DNA of 61,724 nucleotides from Actinomycetota bacterium (GTDB lineage: Bacteria > Actinomycetota > Acidimicrobiia > Spongiisociales > UBA5794). The position numbers were made by a program, and so were the translations under genes. Position 1 is the stretch's first letter, and the number at the start of each line of letters is the position of its first letter. The notes under the pieces were generated by a model, which saw only the letters and a program-made list of their open reading frames with translations, was not told the DNA's origin and did no database searches. The stretch is from assembly GCA_013151445.1 (NCBI GenBank), contig JAADIG010000063.1, forward strand, positions 1 through 61,724, in the 5' to 3' direction. Below, in pieces: positions 362-11,532 of this stretch.

Positions 362-1657
362 ATGAACGCCCAGCAGACAACAGCGGAGGATCCGCTCCGT
401 CGTCTTGTGGCTCGTTGGCGTGAAGATCCGTCCGGGACGTATCAGACCTGGTTCCTTTGGGAGGAGCGGATAAAGAATTTCCGTTCGATCGCGCAGGGAA
501 TTCGCGTGGTCGTTTCCGAGATCGAGGCGGGCACATTCGGCAACGTCTACAGGGGGTCCTCGCTCGAAACCGTCGTGAAGTCCATCGCAGAACAGAGACA
601 GGTCTTCCGGGGCGCCGACCATGCATTTCTGTGGAAGCCGAAACTACGCATCCCCGACATCTACGAGGATCCGGAGAATCAAAAGGCGTTTGGCCGCTTT
701 CTCCAGGCCTGCATTGGATGCTCCGGGAAGGAGTCGGAAGTCGTTGATGCGATCCAAGCGTTGGATCGTCATGCGATCAAGGGTGTTGGGCCCGCGAGCG
801 CGAACATTCTCTACTTCTTGCATCCGACGGTGATTCCTCCCTCCAACACCAAGATTGTCAAGGGATACAACGCCATCACCGGAGCGAAGGTGAAACTGGG
901 GCGGTGGGATGGATATCTAGCGATGCGTCGGGGAATCCTGGAGATCAATGATCGGTACCGCGACCTGTTCTCGAACGATCTCGGAGCGGTTGCTGGTTTC
1001 TTGTTCGACGTGGGTTCAGGAAGGTACCTTGCCCCGCCTCTCGAACCCGACGAGGCGCTGCTGGCCGAATGGGAGAAGGAGCTTGCCGAGGTGCGAGCGG
1101 AGTCGGCGCGCGCCGACCGAGCCATCCAAAAGGCCCAAGACGAGGACCACACCCACACGGAAATCCAGGGATGGCTTCGAGACTTGGGAATGGCCGTTGG
1201 TTTCGATGTCTGGATTGCCAGCAACGACATCAATCGGCCATACGACGGTGGGCGCTTGGCAGATGGTTGTCTCGGTATGCTCGCTGAGCGATTGAGGGCT
1301 TCACCGTCGTTTGATGCGATCCGCCTTATCGATGTCCTCTGGGTTGATCCACAAAACGGGCGGGTCAGCGCTGCCTTCGAGGTTGAGCACACGACCTCGA
1401 TTTACTCTGGGATTCTTCGCATGTCGGATCTCGCACTCGGACTCGAACACGACGAACTTGCTCTGTTTCTCGTCGCTCCCGACTCACGTGAGTCTGACAT
1501 TTCGGATCAGCTTCGGCGCCCGGCTTTCAGCCGGGTAGCTGACCAGCTGGCCGTCCGCTTCATTGCATACAGCGATCTGAAGAAAAATCGCGACGCCATT
1601 GCGCGCTTTGGTCAGGGGCTGAAACCTATTGAGGCAATCGCCCGAAGACCCTGGTAA
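362..1657 (+). CDS. HhH domain plus PD-(D/E)XK nuclease-like protein
   Basis: 431 residues. Residues ~115-165 contain a helix-hairpin-helix-like stretch (HAIKGVGPASANILYFLHP), reminiscent of DNA-glycosylase HhH modules. A charged helical linker (residues ~225-260) follows. The C-terminal ~170 residues contain IDVLWVDP...AAFEVEHTTSIYSGILRMSDL..., which fits the D-x(n)-ExE/K core of the PD-(D/E)XK superfamily: Asp in IDVLW, Glu in FEVEHT. Similar C-terminal domains occur in proteins annotated as restriction-endonuclease-like. The ATG follows an AGGAGG sequence. It stands alone, 114 bases before a methyltransferase that does not look like a DNA methylase. A DNA repair or defence role is plausible but unproven. 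Confidence 0.6.
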   Translation: MNAQQTTAEDPLRRLVARWREDPSGTYQTWFLWEERIKNFRSIAQGIRVVVSEIEAGTFGNVYRGSSLETVVKSIAEQRQVFRGADHAFLWKPKLRIPDIYEDPENQKAFGRFLQACIGCSGKESEVVDAIQALDRHAIKGVGPASANILYFLHPTVIPPSNTKIVKGYNAITGAKVKLGRWDGYLAMRRGILEINDRYRDLFSNDLGAVAGFLFDVGSGRYLAPPLEPDEALLAEWEKELAEVRAESARADRAIQKAQDEDHTHTEIQGWLRDLGMAVGFDVWIASNDINRPYDGGRLADGCLGMLAERLRASPSFDAIRLIDVLWVDPQNGRVSAAFEVEHTTSIYSGILRMSDLALGLEHDELALFLVAPDSRESDISDQLRRPAFSRVADQLAVRFIAYSDLKKNRDAIARFGQGLKPIEAIARRPW

Positions 1658-1771: not shown

Positions 1772-2500
1772 ATGTGGCAAGATCGGGGGATGGAACACGG
1801 AGATGCTTTTGGTGAGGCGCTGCTCGAGTACGTCGCCGGTGGTGATGGGGCGTACCTGATCGAGCGCGATGACGGACTGATGGAACGCCTCAGGTCAGTC
1901 GACGTCTACTTTTCGGGGGTTGATTCGTTCGCCGAGATCGAAACCACGGGAATAGACCTGGTGGTTGGCCGCGTCCTCGACGTTGGTGCCGGTGCCGGTC
2001 GCTTTTCTCTCGCAGCCGTCGAACGAGGATGCGACGTCGTTGCGCTCGACAACTCCGCTGGAGCGGTCGAGGTGTGTCACCAGCGAGGCCTCACCAATGT
2101 GGTGCATGCCTCGATCCACCGGTACGAGACCGATACCCGTTTCGATACGTTCATCATGATGGGCGCCAATCTGGGACTTCTCGCACCCGATCCGGTCCGA
2201 ACTCTTGGCCGGTTGCGAGGTATGGCAGCCGCCGGAGCACGGATCGTCGGTTCAACTCTCGACCCCTATGCCACCGAGGAACCCGTACATCTTGGTTACC
2301 ACGAGGCGAATCGAGAACGCGGGCGACTCCCCGGACATGTGATCATGCGGGTCAGACGCCGGATCACAGTCGGTGACTGGTTCGACTACCTTTTCATGTC
2401 ACCCGCGGAGCTTGCAACAATCGCCGAACGTGCCGGATGGTCGATGGATGTCGTTGAACACGATGGTATGCGTTACGTTGCTTGTCTGACCGCGATGTAG
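1772..2500 (+). CDS. Class I SAM-dependent methyltransferase
   Basis: 242 residues with the Rossmann motif I GRVLDVGAGAGRFSLAA (residues ~67-83) and the motif II acidic residue in VVALDNS, typical of small-molecule class I methyltransferases. There is no (N/D)PPY motif and no C5-cytosine Cys motif, so a DNA methylase is unlikely. The start may instead be the in-frame ATG at 1790, which follows GATCGGGGG more closely. The C-terminus (ELATIAERAGWSMDVVEHDG) resembles Methyltransf_11/25-type proteins. The substrate is unknown. The gene lies between the nuclease-like protein and a TfoX-N protein on the same strand. Confidence 0.75.
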   Translation: MWQDRGMEHGDAFGEALLEYVAGGDGAYLIERDDGLMERLRSVDVYFSGVDSFAEIETTGIDLVVGRVLDVGAGAGRFSLAAVERGCDVVALDNSAGAVEVCHQRGLTNVVHASIHRYETDTRFDTFIMMGANLGLLAPDPVRTLGRLRGMAAAGARIVGSTLDPYATEEPVHLGYHEANRERGRLPGHVIMRVRRRITVGDWFDYLFMSPAELATIAERAGWSMDVVEHDGMRYVACLTAM

Positions 2501-2531: not shown

Positions 2532-2873
2532 GTGAACTCGGAATACCTCGCTGAACTAACCGAGCTATTGAACGTCGCCCAGCCGGACCTTGGTCCCACC
2601 CGCAGCATCACCTATCGGAACGTCTTCGGCGCCGTTGGTGGGTACGTCGATGGCACCATTTTCGTTTCCTGTGGCGCCTTTGGTGTCGCGCTTCGACTCG
2701 GGCCGGAGACCCTGGAAACGCTGTTCGCCGAGGATGGTGTCGAGCCGTTGCGGTACTTCCCGAGGGGACACGTCAAAAAGCAATATGCGGTCCTCCCGAG
2801 ACGGATTCTTGAGGACCGCGAACAGATTCGCACGCTCATCGAGCACAGCGTTGAGTTCGTCACCGACGGTTAG
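2532..2873 (+). CDS. TfoX N-terminal domain protein
   Basis: 113 residues. The order NVFGAVGGYVDGTIFVSCGAFGVALRLG...PLRYFPRGHVKKQYAVLP matches the TfoX/Sxy N-terminal domain fold (an early FG motif, a VALRL strand, a later YF/K segment). Stand-alone TfoX-N proteins of this size are common in actinobacteria and their function is unknown; competence regulation as in Haemophilus should not be assumed. The GTG start follows GAGGAGAGAGGGG. Its stop codon overlaps that of the convergent ABC ATPase gene by two bases. Confidence 0.7.
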   Translation: MNSEYLAELTELLNVAQPDLGPTRSITYRNVFGAVGGYVDGTIFVSCGAFGVALRLGPETLETLFAEDGVEPLRYFPRGHVKKQYAVLPRRILEDREQIRTLIEHSVEFVTDG

Positions 2874-3553
2874 CCGTTGACGATCTTTCTGATCGTCTCG
2901 GGGTCGGGTTTCCCGTCGTACACCAGCTCGCCATCGCTCAGTCCCACACAGCGCGTCGCAATGTCGGTGATGTTTGAGTGATGGGTCGAGACCACCACTG
3001 CGACATCGATTGAGGCCAGGGTCTGGAGAATGTCGACGAGGGTGTCCTGGCCGGTCGCATCGATACCGAGGAAGGGCTCGTCGATGAGGAGCAGCCGGAA
3101 CGGTCGCACCAACCCGATAACGATCGCCGCCTTTTGGCGCATGCCGCGCGAGAACTTGGCCGGGAGGCCATCGACCCGGTCCATGAGACGAAACGCCTCC
3201 AACTGCTCCACGGCGGCATCCTCCCAGTCGGGTGTTCGGTGAAGCGCGGCGTTGTATGCAATGTGTTCCCACAGCGTCAGATCGTCGTAGAGAATCGGCT
3301 GGTCGGGAAGGTAACTGCGACCGATACGAGCCGGCACACTGTCAGCGGGGGCACCGACGATCTGTACCTCTCCCTCGGTCGCCTCCAAGAGACCTGCTGC
3401 AAGACCGAGGAATGTGCTCTTGCCCGATCCGTTGTGTCCTACGAGAAGGACCAGCTCTCCGCTGGTGACCTCAAGGTCGAGAGGTGAAAGCCCGAACCCT
3501 TCCCCATAGTCTTTTGCGAGACCATCGGCCTGAAGTGCCATCTGGGAAGTCAC
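2870..3553 (-). CDS. ABC transporter ATP-binding protein
   Basis: 227 residues with Walker A GHNGSGKST, signature FSRGMRQK, Walker B LLLIDEPFLG and an H-loop in VVSTHHS, so a complete ABC ATPase. The non-standard signature (SRGM) is common in CcmA/EcsA-like and drug-export ATPases. The GTG start at 3553 forms a GTGA overlap with the stop of the upstream permease gene (TGA at 3550-3552), indicating translational coupling; an ATG at 3541 is an alternative. It should pair with the membrane protein encoded just upstream. The substrate is unknown, and an exporter-type role is inferred from the absence of any binding-protein gene. Confidence 0.85.
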   Translation of the reverse strand: MTSQMALQADGLAKDYGEGFGLSPLDLEVTSGELVLLVGHNGSGKSTFLGLAAGLLEATEGEVQIVGAPADSVPARIGRSYLPDQPILYDDLTLWEHIAYNAALHRTPDWEDAAVEQLEAFRLMDRVDGLPAKFSRGMRQKAAIVIGLVRPFRLLLIDEPFLGIDATGQDTLVDILQTLASIDVAVVVSTHHSNITDIATRCVGLSDGELVYDGKPDPETIRKIVNG

Positions 3554-5136
3554 GCCAACCCCGGGTTTCTCTGTGCTATCCACATCCAGGCGACTCCAAT
3601 CATGAGACCAACCAGCACAACGCTGTTTGGTAAGAAAACGTTCGCTGGGGTCCCGTTGACGAGACCCGCAACGACGGGCGCAAACGGGAGGGCCGCGATA
3701 ATCGGTGGTACGACGAGGCGAACTACGATCGCCAGACCGAACAGTTCGCTGCTCGCCATGACGTCGGGGCCACCGAGTAGCGTGCTCACCGATGCACCGA
3801 CGGCGGCAGTAGCCGCAGCGAGGGGGAACACAACCGCGGCGATCAGGGCCGTCTCGGGACCGCCGATCGCGGCGGCTACGGCCGCTGCGAGTACGGCGAC
3901 TGGCAGCATCGATACCGCTCCTGCGATGGTCAAGCGGACGGCGAGCTCGCCAAGTTGCAGCGGGTAGGTGGCCCATCGACCCGGATTGTCGACCTCCTGG
4001 GCGAGTGGTTCCATGAAGTCGTAACCCGCTACGAGCATCAGGAGTCCGGCCACGAGTGCAAGGGCAGCGACGCCGCGTCCGGCGAGGCCGACGCTGACGC
4101 CGGCCCCAACCGAAAGCGCGGTGATGCGAATAACGGCCGCAAGCGGCAGTCGTAGATGCGACTGGACGCTTCGTCGCAGCACCGGCAGGCGTCGCCCCGA
4201 CGAGCGTCCGATTGGTAACCACGGTTTTGTCCTGTACGAATGGTTGGCGAGGCGTCGGCGCAGCAGTACGACAGTGCGCAGATCGTTCATGGTGAGTGCG
4301 AACCGTATCTGGCTGATAAGCCCGGCCCTCTGCAGGGATGCCTCAAGAGAGAAGTTACCGGCCCGGCGGATCCCTTCGCCGACCACGGCAATGATCAGGA
4401 CAGCACCGACGATCGAGAGGCTGGTACCAGAAAGTGGCCACATGCCGAGGCGACCCACCAGTGTGAAGGGCGACGTTACCGAGGCGAACGCAAGGTCGAG
4501 AGCTGACCATCCGACAAGCAATATCCCAATGGATGTAGCAACCGCGGGCGGCACCGGCCGCCCAGACGCGACAAGTGCGGCACCGAACATCAACACACCG
4601 CCGAGGGCTCCGACCGCGGCGAACCCGAAGACGAATTCGATGGTGTTTCCGGGAAGCGAACCGGAGACAGCCAAACCAAGACCTGCCCCGCCAGCCGACC
4701 CCCACATAACGGCGGTACGGAGCTGCTTCTGTGCCGCTCGTCGGGCCACGAACGCTCGATCGACCGGTGCCTGGAGGACGTACTGGACCGTCGCTGCCTC
4801 GAAGACAAGAGGGCCACCATGGATTCCCGAGCGAATTCCCAGGTAACCCGCAAGGGCGACAAACAACCCGAGAGCGGCAGGTCCGCGTTTGACGACGTCG
4901 GCGACACCCGCAGCACTGATTTCGCTCTGGGGGAGGACCGATGCGATGGCGGCAATGACGATGACCATGACAAATCCGGCGACATACGCCTGATAGATGG
5001 CTTCCCAGAAGTCGATAACCGTGCGTCTCGTCTTGCGTCGTGCCCTCTCAAGATCGAGGACGACTTCTCTGACTGAGTCTGCCTTTTCCGTAACCACCGG
5101 ATGGACACTAGTGACCTGCGCGTTGCACATCTCCAC
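3550..5136 (-). CDS. ABC transporter membrane protein (multi-spanning)
   Basis: About 528 residues with some twelve hydrophobic segments (for example YVAGFVMVIVIAAIASVLP near residue 52, and paired helices at the C-terminus) and a basic cytoplasmic stretch mid-protein (RRRLANHSYRTK, then SSGRRLPVLRR). No ATPase motif is present. The size and the coupled downstream ATPase suggest the permease of a two-component ABC transporter, similar in layout to ABC-2/EcsB-like permeases. The start is GTG at 5136 or ATG at 5130. The 5' end is divergent from the GGDEF-EAL gene. Confidence 0.7.
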   Translation of the reverse strand: MEMCNAQVTSVHPVVTEKADSVREVVLDLERARRKTRRTVIDFWEAIYQAYVAGFVMVIVIAAIASVLPQSEISAAGVADVVKRGPAALGLFVALAGYLGIRSGIHGGPLVFEAATVQYVLQAPVDRAFVARRAAQKQLRTAVMWGSAGGAGLGLAVSGSLPGNTIEFVFGFAAVGALGGVLMFGAALVASGRPVPPAVATSIGILLVGWSALDLAFASVTSPFTLVGRLGMWPLSGTSLSIVGAVLIIAVVGEGIRRAGNFSLEASLQRAGLISQIRFALTMNDLRTVVLLRRRLANHSYRTKPWLPIGRSSGRRLPVLRRSVQSHLRLPLAAVIRITALSVGAGVSVGLAGRGVAALALVAGLLMLVAGYDFMEPLAQEVDNPGRWATYPLQLGELAVRLTIAGAVSMLPVAVLAAAVAAAIGGPETALIAAVVFPLAAATAAVGASVSTLLGGPDVMASSELFGLAIVVRLVVPPIIAALPFAPVVAGLVNGTPANVFLPNSVVLVGLMIGVAWMWIAQRNPGLA

Positions 5137-5196
5137 TGCTCGGCAAAAACCTCAAGAAACCGGCTCGGAGACTCAACTTTTGGCGGCTCGGCGCCG

Positions 5197-7359
5197 ATGA
5201 CAGACATGTTGGGTCGACATCCGTTCGCCTCGTCCCGACAAAGAGCGAGAGGGAACGTGAACCGTACGATGCTGGGACGAAGACGAGCAAGCCGTTCACC
5301 GCTGCGCTCAGGTCCGGTTGATGTCGCCATTGCGCGGTCAACGGTTCGGTACATTGTCGGACTTGCTCTCCTCGCGGTCCTTGCCATCGCGGGCGCCTTC
5401 ATCACGCAAACGTCGCTGACGGATCAAAAGTTTGACGCTGCGCAGGTGAGCACGGCAGCGGGTCAGATCACGATTGCTCAACGCGTCACCGAGCAGGCCA
5501 ACAACGGGCTCGTTGACCCCGCCGCGCATCCGATCGACGCGACAGCCTCGAGCATGCGTATCACCATCGAAGAGCTCGACATGATTCAGAATGGTCTCCG
5601 GGTCGACGATCCGAAACCGGAAATCCTCGACCTGTTCTCGGTCGCCGAGCCATACCGAACGGGGCTACGGGCCGCCGTTGAGCGCTACCTGACGGCCCTC
5701 GCTGACGGGACCGCAACCCGGTCCGACGTTGACGCGATCACCGCTCAGTCGCAGCTCTTCCAAGCGGCGATGGAGGTCGTTGTCGCCCAGCTCGAGATCG
5801 ATGCGGCCCGGCGAGTTCAATCGCTGCAAACAACGCAGCTCTTCCTGCTCGGTTTCACACTGGTACTGATCGTTTCCGAGGGTCTCTTCCTGATCCGCCC
5901 TGCGGAGCAGCAACTTCGCAACGTTTGGTCGAGTCATGTCGAAAAGCAGCGTTCGGATCGAGAACGCGCACAAAAGCGGCTGACGTTCCTTGCTCGGTAC
6001 GACGCGCTAACCGGGCTGATGAACCGGTCACTGTTCAACGAACGCCTGGAATCCGCGGTCGAACGTGCTCGACTGGAAGGTGGACTTGTTTCACTCATGT
6101 TCCTTGATCTCGACGAATTCAAGGGTGTCAACGATCGTCACGGACACGCGGTTGGTGATGAGTTGCTGAAGCAGGTCGCTGAGCGGCTTCTCGGAAGTGT
6201 GCGTGACTCGGACTCAGTCGCCCGACTGGGAGGCGACGAGTTCACCGTTGTACTCGAGGGCAACCACCGTATTGAGGACGCCGGGAATGTCGCAACCAAG
6301 ATCCTGGCAGCACTGAGCGCTCCGTACGACCTCGACGGACTCGAACTTCGAACATCTGCGTCGATCGGGATCGCGCTGTATCCGGTTGATGGTGACAACG
6401 CCGAGGACCTGTTGCGCGATGCGGACACCGCCATGTATTCGGCGAAGGCCGCCGGCCACAACACGTACCAGTACTTCACTCCGGAACTCCGGGAACAGAC
6501 CTCCGAACGGTTGTCCCTGATCGACGGCCTCCGCCTGGCCCTGGAGAACGAGGGCCAGCTTGAACTCGTATACCAGCCGAAGGTCGACATCCTTGAGGGT
6601 CGGACCATTGGTTTTGAGGCGTTGCTGCGATGGCACCATCCGGAACTCGGGCTTGTTCCCCCGTCCAGGTTCGTACCCCTTGCCGAGGAGACGGAGCTCA
6701 TTCTGCCGATCGGCGAATGGGCACTGGGTCATGCGTGCCGACAAGCCGTCGAATGGATGCGCTCCGGAATCAGTTTCGACTCGATAAGCGTGAACGTGTC
6801 AGAGAGACAGATCCGCCGCGGCGACTTCGTCGATGTTGTGCATCGAGCGCTCAGTAGCTCGGGTCTGCCACCCGAGAAACTTGAGATCGAAATCACGGAA
6901 GGCACTCTGATCGAGGACACCCAGCTTGCGCGGCGCGTGCTCGAACGCCTGCGGACCATGGGCGTGCAGATTGCCATCGATGATTTTGGCACGGGTTACA
7001 GCTCACTGAGCTACCTCAAGCGGTTTCCGATCGACACGCTCAAAATGGATCGAGCGTTTGTTGGCGACATCACGACATCTGAGGATTCGGCAGTGCTGTC
7101 CACCGTCATTCTTACCTTGGCGGAGGCGCTCGGGATGGCTGTGGTGGCCGAGGGAGTCGAAACCCTTGAGCAGGCACGTTTCCTCCAGGCGAATGGCTGT
7201 CGTCTGATGCAGGGATATCTCTTTGCGAAACCGATGCCAGCGGCGCAGTTTGAGCGGTGGATGGCACAAGAGATGCGCCCAACTCTTGCCGAGACGATCG
7301 TCACTATCAACGGTGGATCACCCAGGCTTCGGGCAGTGTCCGAATCCGATATCGCATAA
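5197..7359 (+). CDS. Membrane GGDEF-EAL cyclic-di-GMP enzyme
   Basis: About 720 residues from the ATG at 5197. Alternatives are GTG 5257 and ATG 5269, which sit after GAGAGGGA. A first membrane helix (YIVGLALLAVLAIAGAFI) is followed by a ~150-residue periplasmic helical sensor resembling the PilJ-type N-terminal domain, then a second helix (LFLLGFTLVLIVSEGLFLI). The GGDEF domain has an intact RLGGDEFTVVL active site. The EAL domain has the EALLRW motif, IDDFGTGYSSL and AEGVET, so both diguanylate cyclase and phosphodiesterase sites look functional. Which activity dominates cannot be read from sequence. It lies divergent from the ABC transporter. Confidence 0.92.
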   Translation: MTDMLGRHPFASSRQRARGNVNRTMLGRRRASRSPLRSGPVDVAIARSTVRYIVGLALLAVLAIAGAFITQTSLTDQKFDAAQVSTAAGQITIAQRVTEQANNGLVDPAAHPIDATASSMRITIEELDMIQNGLRVDDPKPEILDLFSVAEPYRTGLRAAVERYLTALADGTATRSDVDAITAQSQLFQAAMEVVVAQLEIDAARRVQSLQTTQLFLLGFTLVLIVSEGLFLIRPAEQQLRNVWSSHVEKQRSDRERAQKRLTFLARYDALTGLMNRSLFNERLESAVERARLEGGLVSLMFLDLDEFKGVNDRHGHAVGDELLKQVAERLLGSVRDSDSVARLGGDEFTVVLEGNHRIEDAGNVATKILAALSAPYDLDGLELRTSASIGIALYPVDGDNAEDLLRDADTAMYSAKAAGHNTYQYFTPELREQTSERLSLIDGLRLALENEGQLELVYQPKVDILEGRTIGFEALLRWHHPELGLVPPSRFVPLAEETELILPIGEWALGHACRQAVEWMRSGISFDSISVNVSERQIRRGDFVDVVHRALSSSGLPPEKLEIEITEGTLIEDTQLARRVLERLRTMGVQIAIDDFGTGYSSLSYLKRFPIDTLKMDRAFVGDITTSEDSAVLSTVILTLAEALGMAVVAEGVETLEQARFLQANGCRLMQGYLFAKPMPAAQFERWMAQEMRPTLAETIVTINGGSPRLRAVSESDIA

Positions 7360-9320: not shown

Positions 9321-10919
9321 ATGCTTATCGCACGTAACGTGTCCATCGAGGTTGGCGCACGCGAGCTCCTGCGTGATGTTTCCTTCTCCCTTCAGTCCGG
9401 TGACAAGATCGGTCTCGTGGGTCATAACGGCGCGGGAAAAACGACTCTCATTCGCACACTGGCCGGTGAACTACGTGAGGCATCGGGCGAGATCGTGGTT
9501 TCGGGCAAGCTCGGCTACCTCTCCCAGGAGGCGGCACTGTCCGAGATCGAGGACCGTCAGATTACCGCTCTAGAGCGGATTCTCATGGCGCGCGATATCG
9601 GTTCCTTGGAGCGGCGGATGGAGTCTGTTCGCCGCGACATGGAGGACGCAGACGATGAGGAGCGCGACAAACTCATTCACCGATATGCCCGCCTCGATGA
9701 TGAGTTTGGTGCCGCCGGTGGTTACGTCGCCAAGGCCGAAGCGACACGGTTCGCGGCGGCGCTCGGTGTCGCCGGTGAGGATCTTGAACAACCTGTTGCA
9801 ACGATGTCTGGGGGGCAGAGACGTCGTGTCGAGCTTGCCCGCATCCTCTTCGGTGAAACTGACACCCTTTTGTTGGACGAACCGACGAACCATCTCGACC
9901 TCGACGCCAAGATGTGGTTGATGGACTTTCTGTCGAGGTATGCGGGTGGACTTCTCGTTATCAGCCACGATCTCGCCTTGCTCGACAAGTCAATTACGTC
10001 AGTGCTCGCGACCGAGGGCGGGACGCTCGATGCTTTTCGCGGGAACTACAGCTTCTACCTGTCCGAGCGCGAGACTCGCCGCACCCAGCGGCTGCGCGAG
10101 CGCAAACATCAAGACGCCAAGATTGCGCGACTCGAGGAAGGTATCCGGCGATTCAAGGGTTCGAGCGAGAAGCTCGCTAAGCGTGCCCGCTCCTGGGAGA
10201 CCCGGGTCGACAAACTCAAGGCCACCCGCACGGAGATCGCGGCAAGCCGCCGCAACGTTGCGGTGCGGTTTCCGCAACCCGAGACGACCGGGAGAACACC
10301 TATCAAGGCGGACGGACTCGGGAAGGCGTACGGCGACAACCTGGTGTTTCTCGACGTTGAGGTCGACATCGACCGCGGGGAACGGATGATCATCGTTGGT
10401 CTGAACGGTGCCGGAAAGACCACGCTGCTGCGAATCCTCGCCGGTGTTGAGACCACCGATCTTGGTGAAGTCACCTATGGCTTGCGGGCGTCGGTCGGTT
10501 ATTACGCCCAGGAACATGAGCAGATCCATGCGGGAACCTCCGTGATCGATCATATGCGGGCCGTTTCGGGCGCCCCGGACAGGGAGCTTCGCTCAGTGCT
10601 TGGTCATTTCCTTTTGGCGGACAAAGTCGACCAGGATGCCGGCACTCTTTCGGGTGGGGAGAAGACGAAGTTGGCCCTCGCCCAAGTTGTGATGGGTCAG
10701 CACAATCTGTTGCTGCTCGACGAGCCGACCAACAACCTCGATCCTCAGTCCAAAGAAGCACTTCTTGACGCTCTGACACAGTACGTCGGCACCCTGATCC
10801 TGGTCAGCCATGACACGGACTTTGTTGAGCAACTCGTCCCCGACAGGGCGATCCTGATGCCCGACGGAGACACGGTCTGGTTCGAGGAGGAGCTGCTCGA
10901 AATGGTGGCACTGACCTAA
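9321..10919 (+). CDS. ABC-F family ATPase
   Basis: 532 residues with two complete ABC domains and no membrane segment: Walker A GHNGAGKTT and GLNGAGKTT, signatures MSGGQRRRVELA and LSGGEKTKLALA, Walker B LLLDEPTNHLD and LLLDEPTNNLD. The two domains are joined by a basic helical linker (residues ~240-315, TRRTQRLRERKHQDAK...), the P-site tRNA-interaction motif of ABC-F translation factors. It probably acts on the ribosome, either in elongation or in antibiotic protection. The ATG at 9321 follows the LLM gene closely. Confidence 0.93.
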   Translation: MLIARNVSIEVGARELLRDVSFSLQSGDKIGLVGHNGAGKTTLIRTLAGELREASGEIVVSGKLGYLSQEAALSEIEDRQITALERILMARDIGSLERRMESVRRDMEDADDEERDKLIHRYARLDDEFGAAGGYVAKAEATRFAAALGVAGEDLEQPVATMSGGQRRRVELARILFGETDTLLLDEPTNHLDLDAKMWLMDFLSRYAGGLLVISHDLALLDKSITSVLATEGGTLDAFRGNYSFYLSERETRRTQRLRERKHQDAKIARLEEGIRRFKGSSEKLAKRARSWETRVDKLKATRTEIAASRRNVAVRFPQPETTGRTPIKADGLGKAYGDNLVFLDVEVDIDRGERMIIVGLNGAGKTTLLRILAGVETTDLGEVTYGLRASVGYYAQEHEQIHAGTSVIDHMRAVSGAPDRELRSVLGHFLLADKVDQDAGTLSGGEKTKLALAQVVMGQHNLLLLDEPTNNLDPQSKEALLDALTQYVGTLILVSHDTDFVEQLVPDRAILMPDGDTVWFEEELLEMVALT

Positions 10920-10933
10920 CCGTTCCGAACGGT
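10919..10933. terminator. Small palindrome between convergent genes
   Basis: ACCGTTC-C-GAACGGT is a perfect 7-bp inverted repeat around one base. It starts in the ABC-F stop codon and ends at the stop of the convergent membrane-protein gene. It could fold as a 5-bp stem with a 5-base loop and act as a weak bidirectional terminator. There is no T tract. Confidence 0.3.
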
Positions 10934-11532
10934 CACATTTCGGATTCCGTGATCGTGGACTCGATCTCCGTCTCGTTCGATGTGACGAGCGCTAACGACC
11001 GGTGACTCGCCGACGTGAACACGACGCGGATGAAATCTCCCTGTGTCAGGATGACCTCGGTGGAGAAACCGGGCTGTGGTGTCGCCCATTGCAGAAACAA
11101 TTCGGCGCCGAGACGTCGGACGCTCACCGAGCCGCCTTCAAGGTGGATGACCCGCGTGGCGGTGCGCTCACTGGTTGCGGCATCGGTGGCGCTGCCGCTG
11201 AACGGATCGCTTCCGCGCGCGGCGTCAACCGAGGAATCTCCTCCTGCGTCGGCTGCTGCATCACCCTCGCGAGTGCGATCAGCCCGGTCGGGCGCTCCCG
11301 TAGAAGTGTCATCGGTGCTGTCATCGCCGCCGGAGGCTTGGGGCTCGTTCACTGATTGCACTGTCGCTGCGACGGGGAGCGCTGCTACTTCGGCCGCCGA
11401 CAACGGGTTCAGTGGTCTGTCATTGACACGACCACCGGCAACGGTGACGGCACCCAAAGCGACCAGACTTGTCACGGAGGCCACGATGACCCAGCCGACG
11501 ACGAGGAGGAGTCTCTGCCGCATTGCGATCAT
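10933..11532 (-). CDS. Membrane-anchored hypothetical protein, divergent from two-component genes
   Basis: 199 residues. An N-terminal helix (LLLVVGWVIVASVTSLVALGAVTVAGG) acts as signal or anchor. A low-complexity Asp/Ser/Thr/Ala-rich linker follows (residues ~65-120, e.g. GGDDSTDDTSTGAPDRADRT). The C-terminal ~75 residues form a compact beta-rich module (VIHLEGGSVSVRRLGAELFLQWATPQPGFSTEVILTQ...). I do not recognise a family. AAGGAGG lies 11 bases before the ATG. Being divergent from the response-regulator gene with only 92 bases between, it is a candidate target or accessory of that system. Confidence 0.6.
   Translation of the reverse strand: MIAMRQRLLLVVGWVIVASVTSLVALGAVTVAGGRVNDRPLNPLSAAEVAALPVAATVQSVNEPQASGGDDSTDDTSTGAPDRADRTREGDAAADAGGDSSVDAARGSDPFSGSATDAATSERTATRVIHLEGGSVSVRRLGAELFLQWATPQPGFSTEVILTQGDFIRVVFTSASHRSLALVTSNETEIESTITESEM

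Follow-up and report, generated by a model that had tools for sequence, protein, structure and literature searches.

An actinobacterial protein of 431 aa, encoded at 362..1657 (+ strand, ATG start), belongs to the CopL family, named after a protein of a copper resistance cluster in Cupriavidus metallidurans, and is predicted to join an HhH-GPD-like base reader to a PD-(D/E)XK nuclease. Its relatives often lie within copper-resistance clusters, and this suggests that metal resistance includes a so far unrecognised component that handles DNA; base recognition, cutting and a role in repair are what we infer from the folds, the active-site residues and the metal linkage. The window analysed here, a stretch of 61,724 nucleotides, is an entire contig of a 3.07-Mb assembly in 159 contigs, and the CopL-family gene is present in this genome in a single copy. 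The upstream side of the gene lies out of view because the contig ends 361 bases before its start.

Relationship to CopL of Cupriavidus metallidurans

The window protein is 60% identical to CopL (Rmet_6120, WP_008652084.1), with homology over the full length. This CopL is presumably distinct from the same-named leader gene of Xanthomonas copLAB. On plasmid pMOL30 of C. metallidurans CH34 the homologue is flanked on one side by the copF (P-type ATPase) part of the cop cluster and on the other by the copQ/copH part. Its gene starts at 181969 in NC_007971.2, 14 bp from TSS_181983, which an excerpt of PMC9045368 gives as "14 bp upstr. Rmet_6120"; the pMOL30 homologue is thus CopL. It has the same domains and motif residues as the window protein, and its gene lies inside the cop1 copper cluster, whereas copper genes were not seen beside the window gene.

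In excerpts of the published work, CopL is labelled "cys-rich cytosolic protein" (PMC7563307) and "type II enzyme restriction" (PMC12029693). Excerpts also report copL as one of two cop1 genes without up-regulation in an acute-copper transcriptome, in which its antisense start was up (PMC7563307), and among the genes with both sense and antisense transcripts up-regulated by a metal mix (PMC11647585); CopL was not detected in a proteome study (PMC11647595). No functional study of CopL was recognised in the searched part of the open-licence literature, none of the excerpts describes an activity of the protein, and those of PMC7060636 and PMC2932693 held nothing further on it. The CopL family name is already known, and so is the kind of protein that couples a reader to a nuclease; a glycosylase fold without its Asp joined to PD-(D/E)XK, and a cross-phylum association with copper clusters, were not met in the searched part of that literature.

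Predicted domains and active-site residues

Residue counts were taken over the 73 distinct homologue sequences, from 109 loci, that reach 380 aa or more. Two loci with broken frames (L030 and L031, ~9860-11235), in which the homologue is split between frames and is probably decaying or mis-assembled, were excluded from the alignments. The two-domain architecture proposed in the original prediction was borne out by structure models, fold comparison and residue conservation. The motifs it singled out, GVGPASAN (residues 141-148), IDVLW (323-327) and AFEVEHTTSIYSG (338-350), are real and not chance, their key residues being identical in 73/73 homologues. The family-level support expected for both domains was found in part: the sole family match of the protein was PADLOC REase_II PDLC03534 (E 1.3e-9, residues 261-395), Pfam and NCBIfam gave zero matches on all 431 aa, and PF00730 returned 0 families on 23 N-domains at E up to 10, a search in which HMMER filters lose many weak matches.

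The N-terminal part (residues 8-226; 383..1039, +) was assigned an OGG2-like HhH-GPD fold from its AF2 model and VIA-align. Modelled alone, the domain reached pTM 0.79 and mean pLDDT 79.1; the full-length model (mean pLDDT 75.6, pTM 0.54, parts of residues 31-96 at low confidence) has an all-helical HhH-GPD-type fold at residues ~10-222. The best VIA-align match of the N-domain alone was MjOgg 3knt (Z 7.4, rmsd 4.1, 155 aligned) and the second TmOgg 3n0u (Z 7.0, rmsd 4.8, 164 aligned), and residues 10-222 of the full-length model matched 3knt at Z 7.7 (rmsd 4.6, 169 aligned). The two OGG2 matches to the N-domain (Z 7.0-7.4) extend over the whole domain, from residues 3-5 to 214, at 11-12% identity. 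DNA glycosylases made up 45 of the 50 rows listed by VIA-align for the N-domain, and the list also includes a phage DNA-modification enzyme (8z2m) at Z 3.3. Foldseek alone found nothing at E 0.001. Given the moderate Z and the lack of a Foldseek match, the fold assignment leans on the uniform glycosylase list and the motif. A sequence search against solved structures returned helical viral fusion proteins (~10-15 bits per stretch) and others, which were taken as chance.

The helix-hairpin-helix motif GVGPASAN lies at 782..805 (+), and its G141 and G143 occur in 73/73 homologues; by moderate Z on a predicted structure, the domain is an HhH-GPD superfamily fold with the GxG hairpin. The motif was lined up with two HhH-GPD proteins of the same genome, which we take to be EndoIII-like and MutY-like and whose full hairpins read GVGRKTAS and GVGAYTAR; the lines are GVGRKTA...AVDTH and GVGAYTA...ATDTN versus GVGPASA...PSNTK here. 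At the place of the invariant catalytic Asp of HhH-GPD glycosylases there is Asn162 (845..847, +; motif alignment by eye). N162 and the following T163 are each found in 73/73 homologues, where the two own-genome glycosylases have DT. The catalytic Lys position of EndoIII-type and OGG2 enzymes corresponds, by motif, to Ala145 in 71/73. According to an excerpt of PMC5069365, the catalytic Lys129 and Asp147 (MjaOgg numbering) of OGG2 are conserved; the Lys and Asp of OGG2 become Ala and Asn in the window protein by motif alignment, and the latter, unlike OGG2, is fused to a nuclease. Base excision by the glycosylase-like part appears unlikely because the catalytic Asp and Lys positions are Asn and Ala. 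An Asn that is fixed at the Asp position, not a product of drift, suggests a selected, non-excising pocket. A CxxC at residues 117-120 (710..721, +), with CxCC in most homologues, is a possible metal or redox site: 58 of the 73 homologues have CxCC and 6 have CxxC, and the 9 without the motif are the Listeria/Enterococcus, three Bacteroidota, one cyanobacterial and three Kosakonia sequences.

The PD-(D/E)XK nuclease domain spans residues 255-431 (1124..1654, +). The VIA-align list for residues 254-431 is headed by restriction and repair nucleases, with fold matches to EndoMS/NucS and R.BspD6I-type enzymes, the best being the R.BspD6I small subunit 2p14 (Z 8.7, rmsd 3.8, 139 aligned), along with 2vld (Z 7.0) and 5gke (Z 6.4). 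The likeness of this domain to restriction-like proteins, noticed originally from the letters, was confirmed by 2p14 and by PADLOC REase_II, and the helix and strand order in the model fits the alpha-beta-beta-beta-alpha-beta core expected of a PD-(D/E)XK enzyme. The nuclease residues are retained: the predicted active site consists of Asp324 (1331..1333, +) and Glu340-Val-Glu342 (1379..1387, +), an ExE form of the D..(D/E)xK acidic motif, with D324, E340 and E342 in 73/73 homologues. The ExE variant resembles that of BamHI, whereas the EndoMS/NucS and R.BspD6I families carry ExK, and the N-terminal partner of the window protein differs from theirs. At residue 343, 67 of the 73 homologues have His and 6 have Lys, and H265 and Q269 are each present in all 73. 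The C-domain profile gave no match up to E 1.

Distribution and association with metal resistance genes

One scan of genome contigs returned 30 homologous loci, many of them in MAGs, that are 57-86% identical to the window protein and belong to Actinomycetota, Betaproteobacteria, Hyphomicrobium, Acidobacteria, Gemmatimonadetes, Nitrospira, Planctomycetota and others. In the plasmid collection 178/72,556 records matched, 169 of them with coverage of at least 80%; the full-length protein had no match in phage records or in the viral-contig scan. Relatives of the CopL-family gene transfer between distant bacteria. As anticipated, presence varies between genomes: 5/395 in the window's class (own genome counted), 21/349 in the family of a beta-proteobacterial Rhodoferax MAG and 2/327 in an alphaproteobacterial order (centre counted in both). 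The count in the phylum, 4/396, consists of the own genome, one gene truncated at the edge of its contig, a copy interrupted by stops and an EVE-type fusion. The five closest copies gave a dN/dS of 0.04-0.13, several synonymous distances being near saturation. A relative in the same phylum carries a CopL-type homologue with in-frame stops (L131, 1618-2661, -), and another in the same class has a diverged CopL-type protein (L171). Weak Pfam matches at L034, L035 and L036 were under the cut-off.

The association with metal genes was examined on genome contigs in the family of the Rhodoferax MAG. Copper-set proteins occurred in 17/20 homologue stretches versus 1/38 random stretches (Fisher p ~1e-10), and any copper or metal protein in 19/20 versus 5/38. 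When P-type ATPases, which are not copper-specific, were removed, the counts were 15/20 versus 0/38, and with near-copies collapsed by eye they were 13/15 versus 1/38 (p ~2e-9). The linkage is also present on genome contigs of large size, several measuring 3-5.6 Mb. The 20 stretches represent 20/24 homologue places (omitted were G397, the second places of G476 and G686, and G724), and the 38 random stretches were drawn from 12 of the 19 genomes that supplied them, after two of 40 picks that overlapped a homologue place had been dropped. Homologue stretches ran from 12.9 to 19.5 kb, some falling short of the 19.3-kb controls, and one set of reference proteins, taken from plasmid neighbourhoods, was used for both groups alike.

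On plasmids, we surveyed 25 records, one per genus and hand-picked from 41 genera, with annotations sorted by eye; they span six phyla (Pseudomonadota, Actinomycetota, Bacillota, Bacteroidota, Deinococcota and Cyanobacteriota). Sixteen neighbourhoods were copper-annotated and seven had other metal-type transport only (Azospirillum, Komagataeibacter, Magnetospirillum, Deinococcus, Streptomyces, Bradyrhizobium and Brasilonema, with Magnetospirillum classed solely through RND and cation-transporter names), while two, Pseudarthrobacter and Methylocystis, had neither. The copper-annotated neighbourhoods fall in four phyla, and other metal genes were found in two more. A P-type ATPase or multicopper oxidase lay at most 10 kb from the homologue in 16/25 plasmids versus 8.5 expected at random positions (P ~0.0009), in a test that used start positions, treated linear records as circles and omitted second same-frame pieces and sub-cut-off rows. 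Somewhere on the plasmid, a P-type ATPase was found in 23/25 and a Cu-oxidase_3 match in 22/25, so part of the linkage is at the level of plasmids that are metal plasmids throughout.

The defence-island setting considered in the original prediction was not encountered; the informative neighbours are copper or heavy-metal resistance genes. Annotation showed neither a DNA methylase nor a defence cluster next to the homologues, and the 25 plasmid tables, which are incomplete, named no R-M or CRISPR genes except the homologue itself. Six of the 25 plasmids (Cupriavidus, Magnetospirillum, Streptomyces, Paraburkholderia, Variovorax and Runella) have generic methyltransferases annotated close to the homologue. 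Nine plasmid methyltransferases were scanned with Pfam, of which five were generic or UbiE-type and four had no match; none of the nine matched a DNA-methylase model, and none of the plasmid methyltransferases resembled the one at 1772-2500 of the window at E 0.01. Methyltransferases of generic or UbiE type are thus a recurring presence close to CopL homologues in metal clusters (L034 19820-20614, L148 141-1220, L151 13102-15923, L158 8534-9181).

Neighbourhood labels were also assigned across the 73 homologues: copper for 45, metal for 7, none for 17 and too short for 4, counts that include nine plasmid loci whose own proteins served as references and which match themselves. On a tree of the 73, the labels are clustered but switch often, copper with 14 changes versus a shuffled mean of 22.5. 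The window's clade (L001-L003, L044/L045, L004 and L005) has no accepted copper-set neighbour, the copper label of L003 resting on a generic P-type ATPase without an HMA match. No copper-set neighbour was seen in the window, where the upstream side is out of view, or in L133-L135, and the neighbourhood of L136 holds a generic P-type ATPase only. The own genome has two Cu-oxidase_3 matches, both on other contigs. With no copper neighbour in its clade, a metal role for the window's host would follow by homology only. The three Kosakonia loci likewise lack a copper-set neighbour. The 104 predicted neighbours of 11 homologue loci mostly without copper markers included three E1-E2_ATPase and two HMA matches, and no shared theme was found among them. 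The Cys motif was considered as a cause of the copper linkage and set aside, since it tracks lineage instead: copper-labelled Listeria/Enterococcus, Bacteroidota and cyanobacterial members are without it, so the linkage needs no Cys motif. CopY boxes, searched with the common pattern in three Bacillota stretches, were found once in each (4325, 9462 and 4309), in no case just upstream of the homologue.

In the window, a class I methyltransferase lies next door (1772..2500, +) and was not counted as part of the system. It matches generic methyltransferase models, best Methyltransf_25 (Pfam), and no cognate DNA methylase was seen nearby, which upholds the orphan status claimed at the outset; the same is true of the 25 plasmid stretches, as far as their incomplete tables go. 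The methyltransferase was not found in 6/7 relatives searched and, among the loci compared, adjoins a homologue within the same genus only; the genus relative L002/L135 has the same neighbours as the window, at similar divergence. A link to this methyltransferase or to a TfoX-like gene was rejected, the pairing being confined to the genus among compared loci. Other genes of the locus, recognised by eye, are an ABC transporter ATPase and membrane protein pair (2870-5136, -) that is kept in the same genus, a 752-aa protein with GGDEF and EAL motifs of cyclic-di-GMP type (5101-7359, +), and a serine-hydrolase-like fragment at the contig end (3-194, -), 89% identical in L135.

Proposed function and alternative explanations

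The likely design is base recognition and cutting without base excision. The N-terminal OGG2-like module would bind DNA, and its glycosylase pocket would probably capture a base that is damaged or otherwise modified. The captured base would not be excised, because the catalytic Asp is Asn. The PD-(D/E)XK module would then cut at or near the captured base via D324/E340/E342 and a divalent metal. CopL, often an accessory of mobile copper or heavy-metal clusters, would in this way initiate removal of bases damaged under copper stress. Our leading reading, held with somewhat less than even confidence, is a stand-alone endonuclease with a reader for damaged or modified bases and a part in tolerating metal-induced DNA damage. 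A bolder form of it, which we consider rather doubtful, takes CopL as a lesion-directed endonuclease in which an Asn-fixed glycosylase fold is the non-excising reader that places the PD-(D/E)XK domain; CopL would then be the DNA arm of mobile copper resistance, possibly Cu(I)- or redox-switched at CxCC, and would start a non-BER excision under metal stress. Copper resistance is usually explained by efflux, oxidation and sequestration; if the proposal is true, DNA handling joins this list and copper genotoxicity becomes directly testable, the automatic label "type II restriction endonuclease" is in doubt, and a glycosylase fold can serve purely as the reader of a nuclease.

That label, given in many plasmid records, and the C-terminal fold match to type II enzymes would fit an orphan type II restriction enzyme of the classical kind, which recognises one fixed sequence and is countered by a protecting methylase encoded elsewhere in the genome. 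We regard this as improbable: no DNA methylase is named in the incomplete tables of the 25 plasmid stretches, where the scanned methyltransferases are general, UbiE-type or unmatched, transfer into six phyla would require a matching methylase every time, and type II enzymes do not usually recognise DNA through an N-terminal glycosylase fold. The CxCC/CxxC found at residues 117-120 in 64/73 homologues, together with the wording "cys-rich cytosolic protein" in the excerpt of PMC7563307, could point to a copper-sensing or regulatory DNA-binding protein in which Cu(I) bound at CxCC governs whether DNA is bound or cut. We give this little credence, as the motif is missing from the copper-labelled members named above and a protein that only regulates would have no use for the nuclease residues retained in 73/73. 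The gene might also serve the maintenance of mobile elements and travel with metal islands, contributing nothing to metal tolerance; the plasmid-level part of the linkage and the lack of copL induction by acute copper (PMC7563307, in excerpt) would agree with such hitch-hiking, but the linkage extends to large genome contigs, and inside plasmids the genes lie nearer to each other than random placement would give, which makes hitch-hiking, too, a poor candidate.

A modification-dependent, type IV-like restriction enzyme is an unlikely explanation as well, if less so than these three. Its HhH-GPD part would read a modified base in incoming phage or plasmid DNA, the nuclease would destroy that DNA, and metal plasmids would carry the gene as cargo or for excluding competitors. 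The reader-like fold predicted next to the nuclease may read a modified base, no DNA methylase was seen, PADLOC files the domain as REase_II, and the distribution is sporadic and plasmid-borne. The neighbours are nevertheless metal resistance genes, with no R-M or CRISPR genes besides the homologue named in the incomplete plasmid tables, and the identity across phyla and the low dN/dS also speak against it, such high cross-phylum conservation being unusual for defence enzymes. The EVE-type modification-dependent endonucleases, such as the EVE-HNH enzyme VcaM4I, share the reader-plus-nuclease layout with the window protein and differ in having another reader fold, VcaM4I also in using an HNH nuclease (PMC7897488, in excerpt); the word "copper" has 0 occurrences in the main text of PMC7641849, a paper on EVE domains.

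Both the endonuclease we favour and its type IV-like rival are touched by a domain swap seen in five proteins, in which an EVE-like N-terminus precedes a related nuclease domain. EVE domains are modified-base binders according to excerpts of PMC7641849 and PMC7897488, so the swap supports a base-reading role for the HhH-GPD module and also sustains modification-dependent restriction as a rival. Two of the five proteins are on viral contigs. Three are in actinobacterial genomes: L132 (1459-2604, -; EVE E 0.017), whose nuclease domain is 38% identical to that of the window protein, L168 (1501-3132, -; EVE E 0.053) and L169 (1447-2610, +), which had no Pfam match and was aligned with the others. 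Of the viral pair, L162 (3-1049, +) matched Pfam EVE at 24.9 bits, above the 23-bit cut-off, and L163 (4395-5522, +) at E 0.16; the EVE scores of L132, L163 and L168 are under the Pfam cut-off. On plasmids, 0/175 records reached 80% coverage of the EVE-type query. Three further viral contigs (L164, L165 and L166) encode ~310-aa proteins (~4554-5483, +) in which the N-terminus is unrelated and the nuclease domain that follows is a weaker relative.
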